A stretch of 64,000 nucleotides of DNA, taken from contig CAIIXF020000012.1 of NCBI GenBank assembly GCA_903813345.2, positions 24,070,184 to 24,134,183 of the forward strand, given 5' to 3'. Position numbers and translations under genes: made by a program. This document shows positions 30,108 through 55,431 of the stretch, piece by piece (position 1 is the stretch's first letter; each line of letters opens with the position of its first letter). The notes under the pieces are model-generated. The model worked only from the letters and a program-made list of their open reading frames with translations. It ran no database searches and was not told the DNA's origin. This DNA comes from Owenia fusiformis (taxonomy: Eukaryota; Annelida; Polychaeta; Sabellida; Oweniidae).

Positions 30108-30294
30108 CGTAACAGTAGATAGAAAACTGAGGGCATCAGAACGCCACGGGCCGCCACGGGCCCGGGGCTTTCAAAATCTCTGAAGATGAGCAGGAGATAT
30201 AGATGACCAGGAGATAAATTAATTGAATGGGGATTAGGAGATAAATTAATTGGATGGGGCTTTCATCTTAAATGGGTGAGAGATAAGATACGCA

Positions 30295-30892
30295 TGACAT
30301 CATTGTTATCTTAAATGGGTGAGAGATAAGATGCGCATGACATCATTGTTATCTTAAATGGGTGAGAAATGTATTTCTTGGACTGAATAGTAAAGTACAA
30401 AATAAATCCCTTTAATATTATTTTAAATTTGGTATAATCCATTAACAGTGTTTACAATTCTACTTTCAATATTAACCCAACATTGAAAAGAATCAATAAT
30501 CCTATTGAGCTGGTCAAACAAATACTGTTGGCATAAAAGGAAAGAGAACTGGATTTTGGATTAAATATGAGTACAGATGAAAAGGTTTATTTATTTAAGT
30601 CCTATATTGAATTGACCGTTGAAAAGGTTTATTTATTTAAGTTCTATATTGAATTGACCATTTGATCTTACTCTACTTGATTTCAACAATAATGGTCTTT
30701 TAATGTAATAATTGAATGTTGACATTTAACTGTGTCATCACAATGTTAATCCTTCATATTCTAGAACATCTTTTGTTTAATGTGTTAATCCTTTTTTCTA
30801 GAATGATCTAGAGTATATGACATCATCATTTTATGACCTAAGTTTCTTAAAAAATACATGACATCATGCCCTAAAATAGAATTTGACATCAT
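30295..30892 (+). promoter_or_regulatory. Five TGACATCAT motifs upstream of a TATA box (left arm)
   Basis: TGACATCAT occurs at 30295, 30338, 30818, 30859 and 30884; the last three fall within 85 bp of the TATA-like sequence at 30901. The motif is close to ATF/CREB and AP-1 sites. The right arm carries the mirror set. A promoter role is inferred. Confidence 0.4.
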
Positions 30893-30900
30893 TTTTACCA

Positions 30901-30908
30901 TATAAAAA
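30901..30908 (+). promoter_or_regulatory. TATA-like box, left arm
   Basis: TATAAAAA lies downstream of the TGACATCAT cluster. About 80 bp later comes a consensus splice donor, AAG|GTAAGT (GT at 30989-30990). A spliced transcript reaching the ORF at 31529 is plausible. The mirror copy is at 34186-34193. Confidence 0.4.
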
Positions 30909-31528
30909 TCTCCAAAAAGTGTGTGGATCATTTATGAACATGGTAGTAAACAACTGGTGATTTAGACATATCTGTATGCTTGTTTAAGGTAAGTCCTAAA
31001 TATTCTGTACATGATATTCAATAACACAACATCTAAATGCAGTAGGATCATATATGTTCCAATTTCTTTGATTAGTTGTTATATATGAATTGTATTTTAT
31101 GTAAATAATTTCGTAGAAATTGAGCGAATTGTATTTTATGTAAATAATTTCATTGAAATTGAGGGTAAATAATTTAGTAGAAATTGAGAGAATTTAGTAT
31201 TGTGACATGGTCGAATACTTTAATTATCATGTACAAATATTAACTGATGTTCACAAGTATTGTTCATCTGGAAGGTTCCAGAAGTTTGACAGAAAAATCT
31301 ATTGAATGTATGTTAAGAATATAAATAATCTTTCAACTTTCTAATCTGGAATGGTCAATAACAACAAGAACTACATTAATTCACGACATCAGTTTCTAAG
31401 AATATCACGAAATCAGATGTTGATAAGAAGTTGATATTGATGCCGCTTGACAATATATATTGAGTGAAATATTCAAATCTTTATCATTTCAATCCTTATA
31501 CTTGATATATACACATCAACTAAAAACC

Positions 31529-31903
31529 ATGAAACTAGTACCATATGTAGACAACCCAGAACACTGGTTGAAACTTATTAGAGCTGGTAGACAGAATAGA
31601 TTGAAAGTATCTCAAACAGGAAGAGGGTGGATAGGCATAGATGACATTAAAGAAGATACTAAACCGGTATTAATCATATCACCCATGACTGCAGTTGTCG
31701 ACAGAGCAAAGGCACAATTGAAACGTCAACAAGAAGATATGAAACATGAAGAGTATAGACCATCTAAAGAGAAACAACAAAACTCTGTAAATATAAAGAA
31801 GAAACATCCATTTAAACAGAAAAAACAAAACACTTCGAATACAAGAAAGAAACGGACATTCTTATACAAACCACCTGGTATCCCAGCAAGGATGGACGAT
31901 TAA
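31529..31903 (+). CDS. 124-aa basic protein of the palindromic element, left copy
   Basis: The start is chosen at ATG 31529 (context AAACCATGA); the frame is open a little further upstream without an ATG. The N-terminus is MKLVPYVDNPEHWLKLIRAG. The middle holds ISPMTAVVDRAKAQLKRQQE, likely helical. The C-terminal half is very lysine/arginine-rich, ending KKRTFLYKPPGIPARMDD. The protein looks nucleic-acid binding. The layout (short conserved head, 'ISP-TA--RAKAQLKR' helix, basic tail) vaguely recalls small core-like proteins of Polinton-type elements. That is a low-confidence recollection to be tested, and no function is claimed. The identical copy in the other arm suggests recent duplication or gene conversion. 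Confidence 0.55.
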   Translation: MKLVPYVDNPEHWLKLIRAGRQNRLKVSQTGRGWIGIDDIKEDTKPVLIISPMTAVVDRAKAQLKRQQEDMKHEEYRPSKEKQQNSVNIKKKHPFKQKKQNTSNTRKKRTFLYKPPGIPARMDD

Positions 31904-31948
31904 AGTTATTTGTATATAATACTGAACGATATGAATAAAAATAAATAA

Positions 31949-33145
31949 CTAATTCACTAGTATTGTTCACAAATATTCACTAGTATTGTTCACAAATGTT
32001 CACTGATGTTCACAAATGTTCAAAAATGTTCACTAGTATTGTTCACAAATGTTCACTGATGTTCACAAATGTTCACTAGTATTGTTCACAAATGTTCACT
32101 GATGTTCACAAATGTTCACAAATGTTCACTAGTATTGTTCACAAATGTTCACTGATGTTCACAAATGTTCACCAGTATTGTTCACAAATGTTCACAAATG
32201 TTCACTAGTATTGTTCACAAATGTTCACTGATGTTCACAAATGTTCACTAGTATTGTTCACTGATGTTCACAAATGTTCACTAGTATTGTTCACAAATGT
32301 TCACTAGTATTGTTCACTGATGTTCACAAATGTTCACTGATGTTCACAAATGTTCACTGATGTTCACAAATGTTCACTGATGTTCACAAATCCCCCTCCT
32401 CCTCCTCCTCATTCCCTCATAATCCTCCTCCTCATTCCATCCTCCTCATTCCCTCCTCCTCATTCCCTCCTCCTCATCCCCTCCTCCTCCTCCTCATTCC
32501 CTGTGAACATTTGTGAACATCAGTGAACATTTGTGAACATTTGTGAACATCAGTGAACAATACTAGTGAACATTTGTGAACATCAGTGAACATTTGTGAA
32601 CAATACTAGTGAACATTTGTGAACATTTGTGAACAATACTGGTGAACATTTGTGAACATCAGTGAACATTTGTGAACAATACTAGTGAACATTTGTGAAC
32701 ATCAGTGAACATTTGTGAACAATACTAGTGAACATTTGTGAACATCAGTGAACATTTGTGAACAATACTAGTGAACATTTTTGAACATTTGTGAACATCA
32801 GTGAACATTTGTGAACAATACTAGTGAATATTTGTGAACAATACTAGTGAACATTTTTGAACATTTGTGAACATCAGTGAACATTTGTAAAACTAATGCT
32901 AAATAATGCTAACATATGCTAATGATGTAATGCTAACAGATGCTAACATATGCTAATGGTAATGCTAACAGATGCTAACATATGCTAATGGTAATGCTAA
33001 CAGATACTAATGATAATGCTAACAGATGCTAACATATGCTAATGATAATGCTAACAGATGCTAATGAGGTAATGCTAACTAATGCTCATACATATTCAAA
33101 CCATTTGTAAATGACTGTAAATAGCAACAACATTTGAAACTTTAG
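31949..33145. repeat. Central spacer: inverted TGTTCACAAATG minisatellites around a (CCT)n core
   Basis: The left part (to about 32390) is made of TTCACAAATG / TTCACTGATG / TTCACTAGTATTG units. About 32391-32502 is a CTCCTCCTCATTCC tract. The right part (to about 32890) is the complement of the left units. From about 32890 to 33090 there is a right-only TAATGCTAACAGATGC minisatellite, so this is where perfect symmetry breaks. Confidence 0.85.
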
Positions 33146-33190
33146 TTATTTATTTTTATTCATATCGTTCAGTATTATATACAAATAACT

Positions 33191-33565
33191 TTAATCGTCC
33201 ATCCTTGCTGGGATACCAGGTGGTTTGTATAAGAATGTCCGTTTCTTTCTTGTATTCGAAGTGTTTTGTTTTTTCTGTTTAAATGGATGTTTCTTCTTTA
33301 TATTTACAGAGTTTTGTTGTTTCTCTTTAGATGGTCTATACTCTTCATGTTTCATATCTTCTTGTTGACGTTTCAATTGTGCCTTTGCTCTGTCGACAAC
33401 TGCAGTCATGGGTGATATGATTAATACCGGTTTAGTATCTTCTTTAATGTCATCTATGCCTATCCACCCTCTTCCTGTTTGAGATACTTTCAATCTATTC
33501 TGTCTACCAGCTCTAATAAGTTTCAACCAGTGTTCTGGGTTGTCTACATATGGTACTAGTTTCAT
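33191..33565 (-). CDS. 124-aa basic protein of the palindromic element, right copy
   Basis: This is the mirror image of the ORF at 31529-31903, with an identical predicted protein. The start is the equivalent ATG (33565-33563) and the stop is at 33191. The two copies converge on the minisatellite spacer. Because the arms are the same, short-read data could not tell which copy is transcribed. Confidence 0.55.
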   Translation of the reverse strand: MKLVPYVDNPEHWLKLIRAGRQNRLKVSQTGRGWIGIDDIKEDTKPVLIISPMTAVVDRAKAQLKRQQEDMKHEEYRPSKEKQQNSVNIKKKHPFKQKKQNTSNTRKKRTFLYKPPGIPARMDD

Positions 33566-34986
33566 GGTTTTTAGTTGATGTGTATATATCAAGTATAAGG
33601 ATTGAAATGATAAAGATTTGAATATTTCACTCAATATATATTGTCAAGCGGCATCAATATCAACTTCTTATCAACATCTGATTTCGTGATATTCTTAGAA
33701 ACTGATGTCGTGAATTAATGTAGTTCTTGTTGTTATTGACCATTCCAGATTAGAAAGTTGAAAGATTATTTATATTCTTAACATACATTCAATAGATTTT
33801 TCTGTCAAACTTCTGGAACCTTCCAGATGAACAATACTTGTGAACATCAGTTAATATTTGTACATGATAATTAAAGTATTCGACCATGTCACAATACTAA
33901 ATTCTCTCAATTTCTACTAAATTATTTACCCTCAATTTCAATGAAATTATTTACATAAAATACAATTCGCTCAATTTCTACGAAATTATTTACATAAAAT
34001 ACAATTCATATATAACAACTAATCAAAGAAATTGGAACATATATGATCCTACTGCATTTAGATGTTGTGTTATTGAATATCATGTACAGAATATTTAGGA
34101 CTTACCTTAAACAAGCATACAGATATGTCTAAATCACCAGTTGTTTACTACCATGTTCATAAATGATCCACACACTTTTTGGAGATTTTTATATGGTAAA
34201 AATGATGTCAAATTCTATTTTAGGGCATGATGTCATGTATTTTTTAAGAAACTTAGGTCATAAAATGATGATGTCATATACTCTAGATCATTCTAGAAAA
34301 AAGGATTAACACATTAAACAAAAGATGTTCTAGAATATGAAGGATTAACATTGTGATGACACAGTTAAATGTCAACATTCAATTATTACATTAAAAGACC
34401 ATTATTGTTGAAATCAAGTAGAGTAAGATCAAATGGTCAATTCAATATAGAACTTAAATAAATAAACCTTTTCAACGGTCAATTCAATATAGGACTTAAA
34501 TAAATAAACCTTTTCATCTGTACTCATATTTAATCCAAAATCCAGTTCTCTTTCCTTTTATGCCAACAGTATTTGTTTGACCAGCTCAATAGGATTATTG
34601 ATTCTTTTCAATGTTGGGTTAATATTGAAAGTAGAATTGTAAACACTGTTAATGGATTATACCAAATTTAAAATAATATTAAAGGGATTTATTTTGTACT
34701 TTACTATTCAGTCCAAGAAATACATTTCTCACCCATTTAAGATAACAATGATGTCATGCGCATCTTATCTCTCACCCATTTAAGATAACAATGATGTCAT
34801 GCGTATCTTATCTCTCACCCATTTAAGATGAAAGCCCCATCCAATTAATTTATCTCCTAATCCCCATTCAATTAATTTATCTCCTGGTCATCTATATCTC
34901 CTGCTCATCTTCAGAGATTTTGAAAGCCCCGGGCCCGTGGCGGCCCGTGGCGTTCTGATGCCCTCAGTTTTCTATCTACTCGTAAC

Positions 34987-36368: not shown

Positions 36369-37040
36369 ATGGCTGAGGATTTTGACCGTAGTAACTCGGT
36401 CAGTCCCGATGGAACGGGGGCTAATATCCGATATACGGACTCTCCGGAGCGTACGGGGGTAGGGGTGGCTCTGGATCCGAAACCATTCCGTCCTTTTAAA
36501 ACCAAAGAGTCGTATCTGGTCGCTATGAAGGAGGATTTAGCGGAATGGTTTAACATCCTCTTTCAGTTGGAGATGACGGAGGATAACTTTTTTAAGGTTC
36601 TAGAAACGGGAGTTGTTCTGTGTCAATTAGCGAATAATATCCGCCAGATGGCTCTGGAGTTCACTGAACTAAACAATAACGTTAACACGACAAACAGTAA
36701 AATTCCCGTCACTGATGTCATATACCGTCGAAACGTCAACCCGGGGACGTTCCTCACCCGGGATAATATATGTAACTTTATAACATGGTGCAGAGGATTA
36801 GGGATACCAGATTGCTTATTGTTCGAAACAGACGATCTGGTGATGCGGAAAAACGAACGCAGCGTCGTGCTGTGTTTGTTGGAGGTAGCTCGACGCGGAG
36901 CAAGGTTCGGGATGGTTGCTCCTTGTCTTATACAGCTAGAGCGTGAAATAGACGCCGAGATCCTCGGGGAGAAGCTGCCAGAGGCGGAACAGCCGTTTAA
37001 ACAGATACAGACGTGCGATCTACTGTCCCTGGACGAAATG
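36369..37040 (+). CDS. GAS2L-like: GAS2-like exon 1 (CH domain)
   Basis: The exon encodes residues 1-224. The start is fixed by an in-frame TGA 39 nt upstream. It ends at ATG|GTAAAC in phase 0. It contains the whole CH domain and the first residues of the GAR domain (LLSLDEM). Confidence 0.9.
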
Positions 37041-40000
37041 GTAAACATATTTTATTGAGCTTACCCTTTCTGGCATTGTAAAATGTACCATATCGTCACA
37101 GATCCGGAGCCAGATCCAGCCCCTATTGGTAGTAGGCTCAATGAATAAATAGTATATTCATTGAGCCTAGACACCAAGAAGAGGTAACTGGCAGAGGTTC
37201 GTGCATATCGTTAAGAAGATAGCATGCGTGACGAGGCAAAAATGGAATTATGATTTGAGATTTGTAGAGTTATGCGACTTACTATGTTAGGTAACGTCGT
37301 GTAACTTTTCATGTACAAGTCTCATCTTACAAAATTTAAAGCGTTTGATTAATCATAACAAATTATACACGACATTTATTATATTATTACAATATTTCAA
37401 CAGTTAAGATGGCATTTTCTGACATTCACCCATCAAATTATCAATCATAAATTCAATAGACGTCAGTAACCAACAGTAAAGCATTGTTGTGATAAGAAGT
37501 TGCCGCGTCACAGCTCGGTGTTATGTTTAACAATGATATACGATGTTAAACTCATTTAAAACACTTGACATTCTTGTCATTTCGGATCGGGACATGCTAC
37601 TGATACCGATAGTAGAGACTATATATATTATACACAACTTAATCAAATAAGTCACTGATAAGGAAACACTTACCATTTAGTCTCAATTACTTATTTTTTA
37701 ATGCTTATAGTCTCAATTGCTTATTTTAATCCTTGTGTTTGGCCAGAGAACATATATCTACAAGATGCGATCTACAAATTACAAGTCTTCAAAACTCTTT
37801 GGAAGTCATGGGTGGTGATAGAGACCTCTATGAAGAACAATAGGCAATGCTTTCTATTAATAAGATTCAAGAGTGATTGTGTTTCGAGTCTAATAATAGA
37901 CAATTGACTTTCTCGCAAATCAATTTTAAAACGTTTTATAAAAATATACAATGTAGTAAAAATAGAAAGTTCAATAGCTTGGCCATATTCTTTACTTTTC
38001 AAATAGCTCCCAGTCGGTGGAAATTAAAAATATTAATTATATGAATGAACTAATTTGTTTAAAAACTCCCGAGACGCCATTAGAAAGAGAAATTAGAAAT
38101 GATTCAGTTTATTTAAAATAATTTCCATATTGTTAATAACTCCATGCAAAATAAACGATCTTCATCCACAAACTCCCCATCAACAAAAAACTTCTGTGAG
38201 CTCGTACTCTATTAGGCAAGATAAACATAACATCAATGACACAACCATAAAATAGATACGACTAAAACGGACCTCCGAGTCTTACCTTGTATTCGTGAAT
38301 TCGAATGCAACTAACGCCTGTCGGCTGCCGGTTTAACATACTATATATTTTTATGGCCAACTCATTTATATGAATGGAATAGTGGCAGTCACTACTCATA
38401 TTTAGATGAGTTGCCCATAAATAGCCGACAGGCGTTAGTTGCATTTGCGAATACAAGCCAACTCTTAAAAGTACAACAATTCTACGAAAATCAAGTTCCT
38501 TGCTTCAGACTACAGCTTTTGCGTCATTTCCATTACCCCGAGTATGATGACTTGATCGTTTTAAACCGTTACTCTTTCAGGTGCGCGAGCTGGTGGCCAT
38601 ATGTACGTGTCCAGTACAATTCGCTGTCATAAGGTTATCTGAGGGCAAATACCAAATAGGTGATACAAGAACAATCATATATGTCAGGGTAAGAGAATAA
38701 ACTTATAATTCAAATCCCCTCTTAAAATAGTTTTAAATTCTCAGTCAAAATTTTCTCTCAAATAGATACGTTCTCTATCAAATTCTTTCTTGAAATGGTT
38801 TTACGTTCTCTATTAAATTCTCTCTAAATCAGTTTTACGTTCTCTATCAATTCCTCTCTTAAAATAGTTTTACGAACTCTATTAAATCTCTCTTAAAACA
38901 GTTCACTGAAAACAGTTTTATGTTGTCAATCAAATCCTCTCTTAAAATGGCAAAATCGCCTCCTCGTAATATAACTAGGTTATAGCAAGAACATTTGGAT
39001 GTTTAGTCTTCCTTTACCTAAGAATGCGATAATGATTTAGACGTTGGTTTTGTAGATCCTGCGTAATCACGTGATGGTACGTGTTGGGGGTGGATGGGAT
39101 ACCCTGGAGAACTACCTTGACAAACACGATCCCTGTCGTTGCGAAACATATGGACACAAGACACCACGCCGTAAACGACCCACTGATAGGAGAGGTAGCG
39201 CACCCCCACAATCCCTCACGAGAGCTAAACTAAATGAGAGCAACCCTAGTCCAGATTCTAAGATGTAAGTTTTAGTTATCCCCGGAAGTTATCCTCTCGG
39301 GGTGAAGTACATGTAGTAAAGTGGGCTAGACCAAACATTAGTATAAAACGTTGTCTTTTTGCCCAATTGATATCTGAATGTCATCACAAAGACGGTAACT
39401 TCCCACCACTAGGCTAGGCCTACACATTTCTCAATCACAAGGTTGTTATTTGTAACAGACACCAACACTCAGGGAGTAACAGACCTATGCCGCAACACAA
39501 GTAGAGAGAACTTGGACAGTTATGAGCACAATGAAGGTCCATTTACACTGCTTATTAAATAGATCTATAGATTTGTTTCCCATTTGTTACAGGCACCAGC
39601 GCTCAGGGAGTATCAGCCATGTGCTGTAAGCTTATAACCCAACTAGAGAGAATCTTGACAGTAACGAGCACAATGTCCATTCACATTGCTTATTAAATAG
39701 ATTTGTTTCCCATTTGTTACAGGCACCAGCGCTCAGGGAGTATCAGCCATGTGCTGTAAGCTTATGACCCAACTAGAGAGAATCTTGACAGTAACGAGCA
39801 CAATGTCCATTCACATTGCTTATTAAATAGATTTGTTTCCCATTTGTTACAGGCACCAGCGCTCAGGGAGTATCAGCCATGTGCTGTAAGCTTATAACCC
39901 AACTAGAGAGAATCTTGACAGTAACGAGCACAATGTCCATTCACATTGCTTATTAAATAGATTTGTTTCCCATTTGTTACAGGCACCAACGCTCAGGGAG

Positions 40001-41924
40001 TATCAGCCATGTGCTGTAAGCTTATAACCCAACTAGAGAGAATCTTGACAGTAACGAGCACAATGTCCATTCACATTGCTTATTAAATAGATTTGTTTCC
40101 CATTTGTTACAGGCACCAACGCTCAGGGAGTATCAGCCATGTGCTGTAAGCTTATAACCCAACTAGAGAGAATCTTGACAGTAACGAGCACAATGTCCAT
40201 TCACATTGCTTATTAAATAGATTTGTTTCCCATTTGTTACAGGCACCAGCGCTCAGGGAGTATCAGCCATGTGCTGTAAGCTTATAACCCAACTAGAGAG
40301 AATCTTGACAGTAACGAGCACAATGTCCATTCACATTGCTTATTAAATAGATTTGTTTCCCATTTGTTACAGGCACCAACGCTCAGGGAGTCTCGTGCCA
40401 AGCAGCTCAGGTTCAGAACTTTGCCGTCACCCAAGTACAGAGAGTCTGGACAGTAACTACTCGCAGTATTCCACTTCTTCGCAACATTCCCAAATGTCAG
40501 TGGCCTCCCAGAGGTCCACATCTTCCAGTAAATCTGCTCAATCTTACCGACGAGTGAAATCATCTGGGTATGGTCAACAATCACCATCTAATGGACTTAA
40601 GACCATACCCCAGACACCAACAAGCACTAAGCCTGCAGCCACCAAGTGGCGTAGATACGAAGACAATGATGATCCTGAGGATGATGAAGTTGCTCCTCTA
40701 AATACAAGTATGCCAAACGAGGCTCGTATTACGAGGAGATCACCCAGACCTGGGCAGAGCGACGGTGCTGATAGAAGACGTTCACAATCTTTGGGGAATA
40801 TCGATGTGAACAAACAGTTAAAACTAGGACAGCAACGTGATCTTAAGGACCTTGATAAGTTAATGATAACGCGAGGGGAATCTGGTAGGCACATACTGGA
40901 TGATAAAGAGGTTGAACTCAATCAAAAAGTGGCTCCAACCCAGCGTGAAAAACCGAAATCACGTCATATATCAAAGATTCAAGGTAGCCGCAGCACGAGC
41001 CTAAATCGTGATGGAAAATCACCCACCAGAATTCCAAATGGAACTAGTCGATCCCCACGTGATAGAAGCAACCAAAGAGATAATAGCCTTAGTCGAATTC
41101 CAGATACAAAACAAGCTAGAAGGCCAACGCAGCAAGGAAGTAAGGGCCCTCGTTCCAAGAGTCTAGTACGCTCTAAAACATCTGAAGATATCCTTCTTTC
41201 TGCAATGCGTACACGACCCACAACACCTACATCATCGAGGTCGAGGCCAACTACACCAACAATGATGTCTTCAAGGTCAAGGCCAACTACACCAACGTCA
41301 TCTAGGTCAAGGCCGACCACACCCAGACCTGCTAAATCCAATACGACCCAGGGTCAATTGTACCCTACTCCTAGTCCACATTCTAGATCACAATCAAGCA
41401 CACCTACGCACAGAAGAGCCTCGCATAATGAATACACACCGGGCACTGGTAGTCGACCAAATAGCAGACCCGGCAGTCGAAATGGAAGCACTGAGTCGCT
41501 TAACTCAGTTGGGGGCAAATATTATGTCAACGGACATGTAAATGACAAACCTCCAACTGGCAAAAAAGTCATCAAAAGAAGGAACTCATTTGATTGTATT
41601 TCCCCAACAGAAACATATGAAGATAACGATGCCATTAATGCTATCTTTAGTTCTCTAACAAAGCCCCCAGAAGCTTCTCTCCCTACAGAAAGGAAAGATG
41701 ATAAGCATATATCGAGAACTAAAATCCCTGTACCTTTAACAAAACAACGACCCAGGAAGATCTCTCTGCCTGGAGATTTGAATAGAGAAGACTCTGGACT
41801 TGGGAGGTATTCTCCTGACAGTTGCGTCGCAGACCTTGATCATTTTGATGACGAGGATCTACCTAGTCAAATTTCAAAACAAGCCAATCAGATCATGTCA
41901 GAATTCGCATCATGGCATGTATAA
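36369..41924 (+). CDS. GAS2L-like: GAS2-like cytoskeletal linker protein, four coding exons
   Basis: Coding exons are 36369-37040, 38581-38688, 39056-39264 and 40373-41924 (joins in phase 0, 0 and 2), giving 846 aa. Residues about 50-180 form a calponin-homology domain ([40 protein letters not shown]). Residues about 219-289 form the GAR/GAS2 domain, assembled across three exons ([48 protein letters not shown]). The tail is Ser/Arg/Pro-rich with an SRIP motif (41091-41102) of the SxIP type that binds EB1. Known family members crosslink actin and microtubules. The architecture fits GAS2L1/2/3; which paralogue is unclear. A 130-bp array in intron 3 may add optional micro-exons. Confidence 0.9.
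38581..38688 (+). CDS. GAS2L-like: GAS2-like exon 2 (first part of GAR domain)
   Basis: This 36-codon exon sits between the acceptor TCTTTCAG and the donor AGG|GTAAGA, phase 0 at both ends. It encodes [20 protein letters not shown] and continues to IIYVR, matching the zinc-binding half of the GAR domain. Confidence 0.9.
38700..38950. repeat. Degenerate tandem repeat in GAS2-like intron 2
   Basis: Six or so imperfect units of about 35-40 bp, built on TCTCTTAAAATAGTTTTACG and TTCTCTATCAAAT, start just after the exon 2 donor. Unlike the other intronic arrays, the unit does not obviously derive from exon sequence. Confidence 0.65.
39056..39264 (+). CDS. GAS2L-like: GAS2-like exon 3 (second part of GAR domain)
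   Basis: Acceptor GGTTTTGTAG, donor AGAT|GTAAGT, 69 codons plus two bases. It encodes [20 protein letters not shown] through HDPCRC, then a basic linker ([12 protein letters not shown]). The two-base overhang AT joins the G of exon 4 to make a methionine codon. Confidence 0.9.
39459..40372 (+). repeat. 130-bp tandem array of a 3' splice site with candidate 33-nt micro-exons
   Basis: Six near-identical 130-bp units start at 39593, 39723, 39853, 39983, 40113 and 40243, followed by the real exon 4 start at 40373. An older, diverged copy starts at 39459. Each recent unit carries the acceptor CCCATTTGTTACAG, then the first bases of exon 4 (GCACCA(G/A)CGCTCAGGGAGT), then a donor-like GTAAGC 33 nt later. 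Downstream bases still align to exon 4 (GAATCTTGACAGTAAC against GAGTCTGGACAGTAAC), so the array arose by copying the exon boundary. Confidence 0.9.
39593..39625 (+). CDS. Candidate micro-exon 1 of 6, 33 nt, GAS2-like gene
   Basis: Acceptor ACAG|GCACC and donor GCT|GTAAGC bound 33 nt. The micro-exon enters and leaves in phase 2, so inclusion would insert [11 protein letters not shown] before the exon 4 sequence without shifting frame. Equivalents are at 39723-39755, 39853-39885, 39983-40015, 40113-40145 and 40243-40275. Differences in the core (CAG versus CAA) are synonymous. It remains a prediction without transcript evidence. Confidence 0.35.
40373..41924 (+). CDS. GAS2L-like: GAS2-like exon 4 (Ser/Arg/Pro-rich C-terminal tail)
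   Basis: The exon begins after CATTTGTTACAG; its first base completes the split Met codon, and it ends at TAA. It encodes residues 330-846: serine-rich [16 protein letters not shown], acidic [11 protein letters not shown], four S(R/S)SRPTTP repeats (about 41213-41330), an SRIP motif, and the C-terminal [19 protein letters not shown]. Family tails of this kind bind microtubules and EB proteins. Confidence 0.88.
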
Positions 41925-47046: not shown

Positions 47047-47103
47047 TACCAGTTTTGACCTACTTTACTTACATTACAAGTAAAGTAGGTCAAAACTGGT
47101 AAG
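47047..47103. repeat. Near-perfect 25-bp-arm hairpin at the edge of the 119-bp array
   Basis: TTACCAGTTTTGACCTACTT is followed by its complement after a seven-base loop. The right arm ends with AAAACTGGTAAG, the start of the first array unit, so the hairpin and array share sequence. Confidence 0.8.
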
Positions 47104-48647
47104 AATGATCAATCCCAAACAGAGATCACATGATCATGATGTCACCAAAGAGGTGACCAATAGTCTGTCAGTTTCCTTATTTCCCTCATGAGAGGAGAAC
47201 CAAACAACCCAAAACTGGTAAGAATGATCAATCCCAAACAGAGATCACATGATCATGATGTCACCAAAGAGGTGACCAATAGTCTGTCAGTTTCCTTATT
47301 TCCCTCATGAGAGGAGAACCAAACAACCCAAAACTGGTAAGAATGATCAATCCCAAACAGAGGTCACATGATCATAATGTCACCAAAGAGGTGACCAATA
47401 GTCTGTCAGTTTACTTATTTCCCTCATGAGAGGAGAGCCAAACAACCCAAAACTGGTAAGAATGATCAATCCCAAACAGAGATCACATGATCATGATGTC
47501 ACCAAAGAGGTGACCAATAGTCTGTCAGTTTCCTTATTTCCCTCATGAGAGGAGAACCAAACAACCCAAAACTGGTAAGAATGATCAATCCCAAACAGAG
47601 ATCACATGATCATGATGTCACCAAAGAGGTGACCAATAGTCTGTCAGTTTCCTTATTTCCCTCATGAGAGGAGAACCAAACAACCCAAAACTGGTAAGAA
47701 TGATCAATCCCAAACAGAGGTCACATGATCATAATGTCACCAAAGAGGTGACCAATAGTCTGTCAGTTTACTTATTTCCCTCATGAGAGGAGAACCAAAC
47801 AACCCAAAACTGGTAAGAATGATCAATCCCAAACAGAGATCACATGATCATGATGTCACCAAAGAGGTGACCAATAGTCTGTCAGTTTCCTTATTTCCCT
47901 CATGAGAGGAGAACCAAACAACCCAAAACTGGTAAGAATGATCAATCCCAAACAGAGGTCACATGATCATAATGTCACCAAAGAGGTGACCAATAGTCTG
48001 TCAGTTTACTTATTTCCCTCATGAGAGGAGAGCCAAAAAACCCAAAACTGGTAAGAATGATCAATCCCAAACAGAGATCACATGATCATGATGTCACCAA
48101 AGAGGTGACCAATAGTCTGTCAGTTTCCTTATTTCCCTCATGAGAGGAGAACCAAACAACCCAAAACTGGTAAGAATGATCAATCCCAAACAGAGATCAC
48201 ATGATCATGATGTCACCAAAGAGGTGACCAATAGTCTGTCAGTTTCCTTATTTCCCTCATGAGAGGAGAACCAAACAACCCAAAACTGGTAAGAATGATC
48301 AATCCCAAACAGAGGTCACATGATCATAATGTCACCAAAGAGGTGACCAATAGTCTGTCAGTTTACTTATTTCCCTCATGAGAGGAGAACCAAACAACCC
48401 AAAACTGGTAAGAATGATCAATCCCAAACAGAGATCACATGATCATGATGTCACCAAAGAGGTGACCAATAGTCTGTCAGTTTCCTTATTTCCCTCATGA
48501 GAGGAGAACCAAACAACCCAAAACTGGTAAGAATGATCAATCCCAAACAGAGATCACATGATCATGATGTCACCAAGGAGGTGACCAATAGTCTGTCAGT
48601 TTCCTTATTTCCCTCATGAGAGGAGAACCAAACAACCCACCCTTGAA
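47091..48647. repeat. 119-bp tandem array, 13 units in a higher-order A-A-B pattern
   Basis: Units begin at AAGAATGATCAATCCC: 47101, 47220, 47339 and so on every 119 bp to 48529. Type A has GAGATCACATGATCATGATG and GTTTCC; type B has GAGGTCACATGATCATAATG and GTTTAC. The order is A A B A A B A B A A B A A. Each unit contains CATGATCATG, complementary GTCACC / GGTGAC, and a donor-like ACTG|GTAAGA. It lies between the convergent 3' ends of the GAS2-like and RABGEF1 genes. No exon is attached. Confidence 0.9.
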
Positions 48648-50348: not shown

Positions 50349-53300
50349 CTGAAACAGAAATAAATGTTACAATAAACAACAGCAAATATATGTTCTACTA
50401 CATGTATATCACTGACCTTGATTTTACTTATGAGTATTAATTCTGAAAATTAATGAACAACAAAATCAATAGTTTCATCAATCTAGTTTCATTTTCAAAG
50501 GTCAGAGTATTCAAGGGTTTATTAAGCTGAATCAAAGCAAAGTAAAATGAATGCAAGGACCTTACAGGCTAACTGTCTATTTAGCAGGAATTGTTTTTAT
50601 CATTAAGACCTTGTGGCAAGTTTACTCTTAAACAAGGACAAATAGAAATAAAGTACTGTACTCCCATTTTTTTTCGCGTGTGATTAAGTTTCGCACTTTT
50701 CGCAATTGTGGTAAAATCACGAAAATTAATCTTCATGAAATTGTCAATTAAATCCCCATTGCATTTCGTGTTTTCTAAACTGTTTGTCAGGTGTTTTTAG
50801 GCGATAAATGGGATAATAAGTAACAATGTCCGTTACAGTGGCTTATTAGATAAAAAAAACAATAAATTACGATGTAATAGAGGTAAAGGGGCAGCGTGTC
50901 TTTGACCAAGATGACATAGTAGTAAGTGTACTTAGTGAAATTCGAGAAATTTAATAGCCACCGAAATCGTGTTTTCTCAAAATTCTAGAAATTAAAACTT
51001 GCGAAATTAATTGGGAATTCAGAACCTTATCCTTAAAATGGTAACAAATGAGGTTTAACCAGAGAAGTTTTCAAAAGATCCACTTTGCTAAACAGACGAT
51101 CAACAAGTAAAGGTCTAACAAATGAGGTTTAACCAGAGAAGTTTTCAAAAGATCCACTTTGCTAAACAGACGATTAACAAGTAAAGGTCTAAATTATCAT
51201 TCTGACAAAATAATGCATTTTAAAACACTTTAAAGAGCACCAGGTTTCTTTTCATGAAAATTGGTGGAAAATAAACTTTTCAAAATGTATCCTTACTAGA
51301 TTGGTAAAGAAATAGCCGGCTTCACCAGACATCAGACGTGTTGGATTAGCAAATCTGAAAAAATATTAAATGAACATATATATTTTACATGTACATGTAT
51401 TCTTTCAATTTTAACAAGATCATCTTCGCACACTTCAGTCTTCACTGCGTTCAATCAATGGGAGCTGAGTGAACAAAGATGAACAAGGTAGGTTTTTTTT
51501 ACTGAGGGATCATGTTTCATATATTGTACATTGGACAAACCTTGCTATATATTGAATATTGAACAAACATTGTTATATATTGTATATTGGACAGACCTTG
51601 TTATATATTGAATATTGGACAAACCTTGTTATATATTGTATATTGGACAAACCTTGTTATATTTTATTGTATATTGAACAACCTTGTTATGTATTGTATA
51701 TTGAACAACCTTGTTATATATTGTATATTGGACAAACCTTGTTATATATTATATATTGGACAAACTTTGTTACATATTGTATATTGGACAAACCTTGTTA
51801 TATATTGAATATTGGACAAACCTTGTTATATTTTATTGTATAGTGAACAAACCTTGTTATACATTGTATATTGGACAAACCTTGTTTTATATTGTATATT
51901 GGACAAATCTTGTTATATATTGTATATTGGACAAACCTTGTTATATATTGTATATTGGACAAACCTTGTTATATATTGTATATGGGACAAACCTTGTTAT
52001 ATATTGTATATTGGACAAACCTTGTTATATATTATATATTGAACAAACCTTGTTATATATTGTATATTGGACAAACCTTGTTATATATTGTATATTTGAC
52101 AAACCTTGTTAAATATTGTATATTGTACAAACCTTGTTATATATTGTATATTGGACTGCAAGAGTGGTGGATTGGCCTTCAGTACAACGTAGATGAGAGC
52201 TGGGAGGAAGTCATCTGCGCTGGCTGGACCATCTGTAGATTTACGTAGTAGTTCAAAGATATGATTGCAGCACTGAACTATAGAGGCAAGTTTATCTTGA
52301 GGGGCTCTCTTCGAATCCATTTGTATAATATCTAAAATGTACATAAATTTGTGTCAGTCAATGACTTTATTTACTACCCATTTAATCAAACCAACTTCAT
52401 ATTATTGCAACTTTTTCTATAATTATCTCAAAAGATGGAGGAAATACAAGCATAAAGAATAAAATAATTAACTGGTAAAATATTTCATGGTGAGATTTTG
52501 CTCAGTTAGACAAGAAACAGTGTTGTACTGTGCACTAGTCCTAAAGGATTCAATATGCGAGAGCTCAATTCTGCTCAGCTGAATATGAAACATATTAAAC
52601 GCAATGTGTTGAACCTCTAAGGAAGTGCTGGTAATGGAGTATTCAATATGTAAGATCACACACTAATGATCTAACCTGTTATAGCTGTCTCCAGTAGTTG
52701 ACTAGATTCTGCATCATTCTCGTAAATCTTACAATCTATCTGCTCTCTTGTTATCCAATGTAAGCTGCGGATCCTATTGTACAAAAAACAGATATAGATT
52801 AGCCTTTAAAGAATAGCTATTTCTGCATTATTTGCTGTGTACTCGTACTTTATGCATTTGTTTGTTATTTTCTGAAACCTCAAGAATATATATTTTCTTT
52901 ACTGGTTTGGCAAAATGCAAACAAATCAGCTTTTGGCAAAATAATTACCAATGTTTCAAATCAAACTTTGAATCAAGCCACTAAAGTCTGGAAATTGAAA
53001 AATGTTTAATGTTGGATCTCCATAATATTCCCCATTTACTTTTCAAAACAATAAAATTTTCAACATCAAGATGTGACATTTTACCTTTATTTTCTTTTTC
53101 CGACACAAGTTTTTCTACTTTAATATAATATTATGTATATTGTGTATAATGTAAATGAAATGGGCTATAAAAGCCGAAAAAAAAGATGGGACATTTTCAT
53201 TCATGTCGTGTAATGAAACTTCTAGGTAAGTAATCCTTTCCATTGCTTTATGTAAGAGAATATACCTATTTTGTATGGCAAGATCATCCTCCTCATCTGT

Positions 53301-55431
53301 GGTTGTCACAGGACAGAACACAATCCTATAGATCCTGGTCAATATATACTTCTCTATAAAGTCCATCAATGTATCTATAGTGTTCTGGTCCATACCTAGT
53401 AAATAATAACAAATATCTCGTATATTCTGTGAAAGTCTCAACAAGAGAAATTATAGCATTTTTTGCATAACTTATTGAACTACATCTAAGGTAATATTGC
53501 TAAGTATATAAACTGGTAAAATATTGGTACCTTTTTAGACCAGTGAAAAATTAGTACTTTTATAGACTGGCAAAGTATTGATACCTTTATAGACTGACAT
53601 TATCGGTATCTTTATAGTCTAGCAAAGTAGCAATGCCTTAAAAGTACAAGTACCTTTATAGATTGGCAAAGTATTAGTACCTTTATAAACTGGCATAGTA
53701 TTAATACCTTTATAGACTGGCAAAGTATTAGTACCTTCACAGACTGGCAAAGTATTAGTACTTTTATAGACTGGCATATCATTAATACCTTTATAGACTG
53801 GCAAAGTATTAGTACTTTCACAGACTGGCAAAGTATTAGTACCTTTATAAACTGGCATAGTATTAATACCTTTATAGACTGGCAAAGTATTAGTACTTAT
53901 ATAGACTGGCATTGTATTAATACCTTTATAGACTGGCAAAGTATTAGTACTTTCACAGACTGGCAAAGTATTAGTACCTTTATAAACTGGCATAGTATTA
54001 ATACCTTTATAGACTGGCAAAGTATTAGTACTTTTATAGACTGGCATAGCATTTATACCTTTATAGACTGGCAAAGTATTGATTCTATCAGTAATAATCT
54101 GGTAGAAATCCTGCACCATTTCAGAGAGTTCTTCTACTGGGCTATCTGCAAACACCTGGATCTTCTCTATGAATGCACGCACTTGTTTGGAAATGTCTAA
54201 CGCTGTCGTTTTACGTAATTTTTTCAGGAACTCTGCAAATTCTCCTCCCACTTGCTGACTCTCGACGCTGACTCTCTTAGCAACTGGATCTTTCTTTGGA
54301 GGTGTGTTGCTGGGACTGGATTCTGAACAAAGATCAATGTATAATATAAAAATATAATTCAATTGATTTATTTCATTCTTCATTGTCGTCATGTATTATA
54401 AAGTATGTGTGCATGAATGAAATTAACAATAGGCATGATTTTTAACAGTGGTTTCTCAAACAAAATATTTGTTGGATTAAATGCTTTTTCATAAGATAGC
54501 AATAATAGTCAAACCTAAGCTTTTGAAATTGTATATGCATAGGTAGATTACATTCAATTTAAGAGACATTTTCAGAGGCATTCAACTTCAAGAAAATTAT
54601 AAAATGGGTCTTTTTATAAAAACTGGAGGCAGATTTTGCTTTATGGTTCAATTCACCATCCACTGCCTTCAAAGGTAAGAGCTGAAACTCTATTGCATTT
54701 TTTGATAATAAAATAATACCTTTGGAAGATCTGTTGAAGATTGATTTGACTGTGTTCTTTCTTTTCTCTGATTGTTGTTTTTTACGCTCTTCAAATTTAC
54801 TGAAGGAAGGTGCTGTTTCTCCACTTCCCATCTGACTCAATCTGAAACAAAATACAACCTTATTTCTTAATAAAAAGTTGTATAATAAATCCATACCTTC
54901 AAGTTGTTTTACATAATTAAAGGGTTCATTTCAGTCAGGATTTCAACGAATGGTTAAATAAATAACACAAGGTATATTACTTTTGTAAATTCAAGAAATA
55001 AAACTGCAACATTTAAAACAATAAATGTAACGTGTAAGTTCAGCAAAAAATGTTATATATAAAAAGCAGACTCTGTATTTGAATCAAGAGAATAAAAGTA
55101 AGGATTTGAGATATAATAAAATGAAATAATTTAAAGCAAAATGCTGCAAAGTCAAATTGATTTAGATCAAGAGTCACTCTTCCAAAGATTGGGAAAGTCC
55201 ATATAAATTATTTTTTATTTTAGACGTACAATTACAAACAAACCTTTTGCTTCTGTTACTAGCAATTTGTTCTGTTTTTGGCTGTACTTGTTTTGCCTTC
55301 TGGTAGTCTCTCCAACATTTGGAGCAGTAGCCTTGCCATCCTGGGTTGCCATAGAAACCGCATCCATTCTTGCACATAAGGTCAGACTCATCAACATGGA
55401 AGCCTTTCTTGCTGGACCTTCTACTCATCAT
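49956..55431 (-). CDS. RABGEF1: Rab5 guanine-nucleotide exchange factor RABGEF1 (Rabex-5), eight coding exons
   Basis: Exons in transcription order: 55431-55244, 54841-54720, 54322-54059, 53395-53266, 52773-52676, 52331-52133, 51354-51297 and 50348-49956. All have GT-AG junctions and compatible phases; the product is 483 aa, near the roughly 490 aa of vertebrate forms. Residues 14-48 are an A20-type zinc finger (C20, C24, C36, C39), which binds ubiquitin in the mammalian protein. Residues about 105-200 match the helical bundle, and about 210-355 the VPS9 domain that activates Rab5 on early endosomes. Residues reported as essential in Rabex-5 appear kept: D307 and P311 (SADDFLP), Y348 and T351 (GYFFTNL). 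A coiled-coil-like region follows ([18 protein letters not shown]). Two introns hold minisatellites made from their own exon ends. Confidence 0.93.
51297..51354 (-). CDS. RABGEF1: RABGEF1 exon 7
   Basis: A 58-nt exon between TTTTTTCAG and CTA|GTAAGG. It encodes [19 protein letters not shown], the end of the VPS9 domain with the conserved Tyr and Thr. Confidence 0.9.
51497..52132 (-). repeat. 28-bp minisatellite copied from the RABGEF1 exon 6 donor
   Basis: About 22 units of TCCAATATACAATATATAAC + AAGGTTTG (minus strand) fill the intron directly after exon 6. The first 23 bases equal the last 23 bases of exon 6, which encode the conserved SNIQYITR; the rest equals the donor AAG|GTTTG. Most copies therefore carry a complete copy of the 5' splice site. 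The period is not a multiple of three, so use of a distal donor would shift the frame unless three or a multiple of three units were added. Confidence 0.9.
52133..52331 (-). CDS. RABGEF1: RABGEF1 exon 6 (VPS9 core)
   Basis: Acceptor CATTTTAG, donor ACAAG|GTTTGT. It encodes [39 protein letters not shown] and [10 protein letters not shown]. Its 3' end is the parent of the 28-bp array. Confidence 0.92.
52676..52773 (-). CDS. RABGEF1: RABGEF1 exon 5
   Basis: Acceptor TACAATAG, donor ACAG|GTTAGA. It encodes [20 protein letters not shown] through LLETAIT, in the VPS9 domain. Too short for most ORF callers but unambiguous by phase and similarity. Confidence 0.9.
53266..53395 (-). CDS. RABGEF1: RABGEF1 exon 4 (start of VPS9 domain)
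   Basis: Acceptor TTTACTAG, donor AATAG|GTATAT. It encodes [40 protein letters not shown] and IQNR. Confidence 0.92.
53515..54058 (-). repeat. 27-bp minisatellite copied from the RABGEF1 exon 3 donor, open in frame
   Basis: Directly after exon 3, units of ATTAATACTTTGCCAGTCTA + TAAAGGT (minus strand) repeat with a 27-bp period. They equal the last bases of exon 3 plus its donor AAAG|GTAT. Fifteen units stay open in the exon 3 frame before a stop near 53619, reading (I/T)NT(L/M)PVYKG. All keep GT at the donor position, and ten read AG|GTA. More decayed units continue to about 53515. Neighbouring units alternate L and M forms, a 54-bp higher-order period. Confidence 0.9.
54059..54322 (-). CDS. 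RABGEF1: RABGEF1 exon 3 (helical bundle)
   Basis: Acceptor TTTGTTCAG, donor AAAG|GTATAA. It encodes [58 protein letters not shown] and TLPVYK. The end NTLPVYK is the parent of the 27-bp array. The minimal donor was chosen because it joins exon 4 in phase without extra repeats. Confidence 0.88.
54720..54841 (-). CDS. RABGEF1: RABGEF1 exon 2
   Basis: Acceptor TTTGTTTCAG, donor CAAAG|GTATTA. It encodes [20 protein letters not shown] and a basic segment ([20 protein letters not shown]). The FSKFEE block is shared with vertebrate RABGEF1. Confidence 0.9.
55244..55431 (-). CDS. RABGEF1: RABGEF1 exon 1 (A20 zinc finger)
   Basis: It begins with two consecutive ATG codons (55431-55426) and ends at AAAAG|GTTTGT. 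It encodes [20 protein letters not shown] through [14 protein letters not shown]. An acceptor-like TTTGTGTTTTAAAG just upstream suggests a non-coding 5' exon. Confidence 0.9.

Follow-up and report, generated by a model that had tools for sequence, protein, structure and literature searches.

Does an intron that ends in six copies of its own acceptor splice these copies as small exons, or are they removed with the rest of the intron? The question is raised by a GAS2-like gene of the annelid Owenia fusiformis, located in the 64,000-nucleotide (nt) stretch of contig CAIIXF020000012.1 analyzed here (hereafter, the window, with all positions counted within it), in which intron 3 ends in a 130-bp tandem array. 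A preliminary description of the locus had read the array as six candidate 33-nt micro-exons. From the features of the sequence, we conclude that the array is probably a minisatellite of the "mirage" type, that is, a tandem repeat of an intron/exon boundary, at the junction of intron 3 and exon 4 of the GAS2-like gene, and that the upstream units are likely intronic rather than usable micro-exons.

A 130-bp array at the acceptor of exon 4

The mirage-type minisatellite spans 39567..40391 on the plus strand, with a period of 130, 6.3 copies and 99% matches according to Tandem Repeats Finder. As described earlier, the array is real: exon 4 is preceded by six 130-bp units, and each of these contains an acceptor followed by a 33-nt core. 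The cores, which are the proposed micro-exons, lie on the plus strand at 39593..39625, 39723..39755, 39853..39885, 39983..40015, 40113..40145 and 40243..40275, which would leave 97-nt introns between successive cores, and the window contains the sequence GCTGTAAGC at six places (39623+130n), in register with them. Between −26 and +83 relative to the acceptor, the six units differ from one another at just two columns, namely, core position 7 (A/G) and position 44, and unit 1 is set apart from the other units by a short insertion further upstream. The core had been said to vary only synonymously, which is true but amounts to a single A/G column, common to exon 4.

The homogeneous array extends 19 nt into exon 4, ending at 40391. 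Units 4 and 5 are identical to the boundary stretch formed by the final 47 nt of intron 3 and the initial 19 nt of exon 4; units 2, 3 and 6 show one difference from these 66 nt, and unit 1 shows 18. Because the near-identity with the units crosses 19 nt into exon 4, the genuine acceptor of exon 4 is itself that of the last unit of the array. We searched the genome (498 Mb, 525 contigs; the window is on C12) with 221 bases of the array and exon 4, skipping very common words. All seven matches were at the locus itself, inside the array, and no retrocopies or dispersed copies of the 130-bp unit were found in this search; no match to Rfam at gathering scores was detected in the window. Thus, the array has the features of a mirage: the unit crosses a boundary of the host gene, a splice signal is present in 6/6 units, the units are homogenized inside the array with a diverged copy at its edge, and the array is confined to the locus.

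Origin of the units from exon 4

The identity with the exon 4 boundary bears out the tandem amplification of an acceptor derived from exon 4. The units had been described as copies of the acceptor and first bases of exon 4; the acceptor is indeed copied, but the homology with exon 4 extends well past the first bases. The alignment of the unit with exon 4 picks up again behind the apparent donor that follows the core, and runs ungapped to nt 87 of exon 4 and with gaps to nt 116, scoring 24.5 compared with a maximum of 18.5 in 2000 shuffles (0/2000 as good). Core nt 20–33 align with exon 4 no better than shuffles do (937/2000 as good).

Upstream of the first core, at 39459..39592 (plus strand), is an older diverged copy of the start of exon 4, followed by the acceptor region of the next unit. 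It has a weak acceptor (score 2.32) and is devoid of GTAAGC, in agreement with the preliminary description, and none of the 2000 shuffles aligns with exon 4 as well as it does. Compared with exon 4, ~20 nt are missing from the older copy and a net 12 from the units. Given that both the unit and the older copy align with exon 4 beyond chance, the copies stem from the last part of intron 3 plus ~87–116 nt of exon 4. Two further proposals also held: exon 4 lacks GTAAGC at the corresponding place, with none in its first 125 nt, and the donor-like sequence was apparently gained after the older copy and before the amplification, GTAAGC being confined to the amplified units, where it lies at two 4-nt insertions of the unit relative to the older copy.

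We also considered a tandem exon duplication, yielding either cassette or mutually exclusive exons, in which a whole exon would be copied with both splice sites. This candidate was rejected because the copies match about the first 87–116 nt of a last exon with a 1552-nt coding part.

Strength of the splice sites

As a control set, 61 introns were located in the genome through spliced alignments with five conserved proteins, 57 of these introns were kept, and a donor and acceptor model was built on these 57 introns, with the genuine donors scored leave-one-out. The six unit acceptors are identical and score 9.66, the same as the genuine acceptor of exon 4, which corresponds to the 61st percentile of the 57 genuine acceptors; among background AGs, 5/1501 score this high. 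Across all seven acceptors (six units and exon 4), the sequence does not vary between −20 and +3 nor, for most of them, further into the intron.

The unit donor, GCT/GTAAGC, scores 0.27, less than any of the 57 genuine donors (minimum 1.33), and 517/1830 other GTs in introns do at least as well. Its pairing with U1 (−4.3 kcal/mol) is weaker than that of 57/57 genuine donors (weakest −5.0). T at −1 is found in none of the 57 genuine donors. Eight of these have a base other than G there, and all eight are GTAAGT or GTAAGG; the donor of exon 3, which has T at −1 too, scores 5.77 with a U1 energy of −5.4. The core was correctly described as 33 nt long and in phase 2 at both ends; the frame remains open with none, one or six cores, and 11 residues are added per core. 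The further proposal that the cores are exons was not borne out, the donor falling below all genuine ones by both score and U1 energy. A symmetric open segment of 9–80 nt with a donor scoring at least as high as that of the unit follows 16/108 acceptor-like AGs in control introns and 160/941 in random DNA (5/33 and 71/407, respectively, with a stricter acceptor cut). Thus, an open symmetric segment at the unit's donor score is expected by chance in 15–17% of cases.

The host gene

The GAS2-like gene is encoded on the plus strand. Exon 1 (36369..37040; start codon placed by reading, donor ATG/GTAAAC) encodes a calponin homology domain (Pfam CH, 2.3e-14), with a single PDB match, to GAS2 (9kbx, 1.6e-29). 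Exon 2 (38581..38688; donor AGG/GTAAGA) and exon 3 (39056..39264; donor GAT/GTAAGT) encode the first and second halves of the GAS2 domain, respectively (Pfam GAS2, 2.6e-8 and 1.1e-16), exon 3 being 209 nt long and ending in phase 2. The coding part of exon 4 (40373..41924, 1552 nt) is an open frame for a 517-residue tail, which, in the joined frame, contains three [ST]xIP motifs (TRIP, SRIP and TKIP). In vertebrate GAS2-like proteins, C-terminal SxIP or SxLP motifs are bound by end-binding proteins, according to excerpts of PMC4058111.

Paralogues with a GAS2 domain are present on C1, C7 and C11, and in the 7 kb downstream of the C11 paralogue, read by eye, nothing resembling exon 4 was seen. 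The same inspection by eye revealed a tandem repeat of ~900 bp in the region after the GAS2 exon of the C11 paralogue, at a distance of ~3 kb (L011:3180-4080).

Formation of the array and its possible effects on splicing

We propose that the array was founded by a duplication of the end of intron 3 and the start of exon 4 of the GAS2-like gene. An early copy, the one at 39459, decayed, and a sister copy was amplified to six near-identical 130-bp units, recently to judge by their uniformity, with turnover presumably occurring by unequal exchange or slippage. The 33-nt core would then be a remnant of exon 4, with GTAAGC behind it by happenstance. In most transcripts, exon 3 would be joined to the last, exon-proximal acceptor and the units would be removed with the intron, as can be expected from exon-definition reasoning and from the reported behavior of similar arrays in amphioxus, given that the units carry strong acceptors and no convincing donor.

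Several observations weigh against this mirage interpretation. The six upstream acceptors match the genuine one in strength, and we infer rather than observe that they are passed over. GTAAG is found at 19/57 genuine donors versus 19/1830 background GTs, C at +6 is present in 3/57 genuine donors, and a symmetric open arrangement with GTAAG follows none of the 108 control-intron AGs and 8 of the 941 random-DNA AGs (0/33 and 2/407 with the stricter cut). Given this enrichment and the rarity of the arrangement by chance, the GTAAG motif is less likely to be accidental than its total score implies, and a position-independent score derived from 57 sites may undervalue it. Furthermore, excerpts of two reports describe, respectively, a potato gene in which GTAAG in a duplicated intron/exon boundary became a working donor, with 106 RNA-seq reads (PMC4974935), and the view of the authors of the amphioxus work that repeats with splice signals could yield alternative transcripts (PMC3087553). 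If each core were spliced as a 33-nt cassette, zero to six 11-residue modules would be placed before the tail. This micro-exon ladder draws on the symmetric, open, phase 2 core, on acceptors at the 61st percentile of the 57 genuine ones, on the rarity of the open GTAAG arrangement (8/941) and on the 97-nt introns that would separate the cores, as well as on the potato precedent, in which the motif was activated by a boundary-crossing tandem duplication, and on the model of the amphioxus authors, excerpted from PMC3087553, by which a mirage unit may turn into an exon. However, the donor is weaker than 57/57 genuine donors by score and U1 energy, the control introns are at least 131 nt long (the shortest of 57), the uniformity of the units is too high to reveal selection, and regular splicing is reportedly unaltered by the amphioxus arrays (excerpts of PMC3087553 and PMC3902484). 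We therefore hold such a ladder to be decidedly unlikely and regard a micro-exon role of the cores, as far as it can be judged from their sequence, as a minor possibility.

The acceptors alone could also act as a switch, exon 3 being joined to an upstream unit that is read on as an extended last exon, with the loss of the 500-residue tail and the three [ST]xIP motifs; the resulting protein would resemble plain GAS2. All six upstream acceptors score like the genuine one, and the three that were translated (39593, 39723 and 40243) give the same 12-residue end followed by a stop, the remaining three units having the same core; use of the acceptor of the older copy would add 15 residues before a stop. 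The binding of end-binding proteins to SxIP or SxLP at the C-termini of GAS2-like proteins (excerpts of PMC4058111) also speaks for such a switch. Exon definition, however, favors the exon-proximal site, and the amphioxus arrays are reportedly spliced normally, and we consider the switch unlikely. With a weak donor and equal acceptors, the tail-less form would be the more likely side product. It is hardly credible, finally, that the array or its length results from an error in long-read assembly. The six units are near-identical, a single haplotype is represented, and a mirage of amphioxus was seemingly misassembled in a draft genome (excerpts of PMC3087553), but the units differ at two columns, the flanks of the first and last units differ from each other, the older copy is diverged, and both arrays in the neighboring gene are degenerate. 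The array could nevertheless be real with a wrong number of units.

Two donor arrays in the adjacent RABGEF1-like gene

The GAS2-like gene is adjoined by a RABGEF1-like gene on the minus strand, with PDB matches to the Rab5 GDP/GTP exchange factor. Its seven introns were placed by reading, and the PDB matches lend partial support to the exons that flank four of the seven. Two further junction arrays were identified in this gene, both at donors. The second junction array of the window (51519..52156, minus strand) has a 28-bp unit that comprises the last 23 coding nt, encoding SNIQYITR, and GTTTG of the donor; the genuine donor is at 52132, and SNIQYITR at this exon is identical in a solved mammalian chain. 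The array contains 21 GTs, including the genuine donor, that score at least as high as the weakest genuine control, and 16 of them have the same score as the genuine donor (8.54). All four later donors that were joined to the next exon ran into a stop. A genome search with this array and its exon gave weaker matches, of 65–72%, on C5 and C3 (6/8).

The third junction array (53507..54080, minus strand; first donor at 54058) has a 27-bp unit consisting of the last 22 coding nt and the first 5 nt of the donor. Thirteen GTs, the first donor included, score at least as high as the weakest genuine control; 11/11 donors joined to the next exon are in frame and add 0, 2, 3, 5, 7, 8, 10, 12, 13, 14 or 15 nine-residue modules, and the last two GTs, which lie past the stop that closes the open frame, were not joined. 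The insertion point is presumably between the helical bundle and the Vps9 domain. The lack of stops gave no significant sign of selection for an open frame, with P(no stop) of 0.20–0.57 under two substitution counts. In the genome search with this array and its exon, all three matches were at the locus itself. On account of its stronger donors and its open frame, the array of 27-bp units is more convincing as a ladder than the GAS2-like array, and it would be the better candidate for an in-frame ladder among the arrays of the window, if any of them makes one. In that case, the ten alternative donors would insert 2 to 15 nine-residue modules. A minisatellite that contains several splice donors is known from the human gene IFI6. 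A broader proposal, that tandem repeats repeatedly form across splice junctions here and act as ladders metering protein length, through 0–6 11-residue modules or a tail-less form in the GAS2-like gene and through the 27-bp array in its neighbor, appears very doubtful.

Copies of a junction were found in 3/10 introns of the GAS2-like and RABGEF1-like genes compared with 0/57 control introns (Fisher 0.0025), or in 2/9 versus 0/57 without the flagged intron (Fisher 0.017). Tandem arrays are present in 5/57 control introns, covering 3% of their bases, versus 16% of random DNA; the latter value was obtained from a random genome sample (L018-L031, 140 kb), in which 37 arrays of period ≥15 were counted, 13 of them with at least four copies. 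Despite the low Fisher value, we do not claim a special seeding of arrays at junctions because two of the arrays are in one gene, the controls are array-poor housekeeping genes, and the window is not a random one.

Other features of the window and genome

Additionally, an inverted repeat was observed at ~30110-31960 and 33135-34985 of the window, with arms identical over at least 1.6 kb and a spacer filled with a minisatellite; a young palindrome, a mobile element and an assembly artefact are candidate explanations. A 119-bp array at 47091-48639 (13 copies, 97%) has in front of it a short stretch that repeats its first bases in inverted orientation, and may belong to a mobile element. Elsewhere in the genome, an exon of VCP/p97 (~residues 393-459) is present twice in tandem, at C1:2677966-2678160 and 2678366-2678557, with 72% and 73% identity to the human protein, and these two are candidate mutually exclusive exons by their sequence. 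The genome also has three matches above the cut-off to Eryth_link_C, a family of annelid linker proteins, versus none in 14 control genomes, in keeping with an annelid.

Significance and comparison with known systems

If the three arrays in two adjacent annelid genes are of this kind, mirages would be more widespread among animal genomes and would provide them with a continuing supply of new introns and exons. Such arrays also represent natural experiments on splice-site choice: because the seven acceptors of the GAS2-like gene share the sequence from −20 to +3, reads would show the effect of position versus that of site sequence, with the caveat that exon 4 diverges from the units after its nt 19.

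The published systems with which we compare the array are cited here from excerpts of the respective reports. The micro-exon genes of Schistosoma, with many short exons of 3–81 bp (PMC10526429), resemble the cores in the number of short exons but differ in that long introns lie between these exons, the genes encode secreted proteins, and the exons do not derive from one acceptor copied in a 130-bp repeat. In human segmental duplications, variable minisatellites at exon–intron boundaries may cause novel introns (PMC2812944); unlike the present array, these came to light when transcripts and paralogues from recent duplications were compared. A report on minisatellites of C. elegans (PMC4039745) proved not to be relevant. 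The potato gene is similar in that the duplication crosses an intron–exon boundary and the GTAAG of the exonic copy is the donor of the new intron, but the potato intron is backed by RNA, whereas the GAS2-like donor is weak and is present in six copies.

The closest counterparts are in amphioxus, in which tandem-repeated intron/exon boundaries are described for Adh, troponin C, globin (BflGb6 and BflGb9) and PGBD5, those in the first three being called mirages (PMC3087553, PMC3902484). Among the matches listed in the open-licence literature, no mirage under that name was found outside lancelets. For the amphioxus arrays, reverse transcription PCR suggested regular splicing without interference (PMC3087553, PMC3902484), and the authors of the globin study suggest that a mirage unit could turn into an exon and give rise to introns (PMC3087553). 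The array of BflGb6, with 150–160-bp units made of the end of an intron and the start of an exon and with 6 copies in one haplotype and 3 in another (PMC3087553), has almost the same build as the GAS2-like array. Shared with the amphioxus mirages are the tandem copies spanning a boundary, on either the acceptor or the donor side, and the authentic boundary adjoining them; the present case differs in the annelid host, which has 12 chromosome-sized contigs where lancelets have more chromosomes, in the presence of three arrays in two adjacent genes, and in one donor array, that of 27 bp, being open and in frame. The GAS2-like array is thus best classified as a mirage minisatellite, in an annelid.

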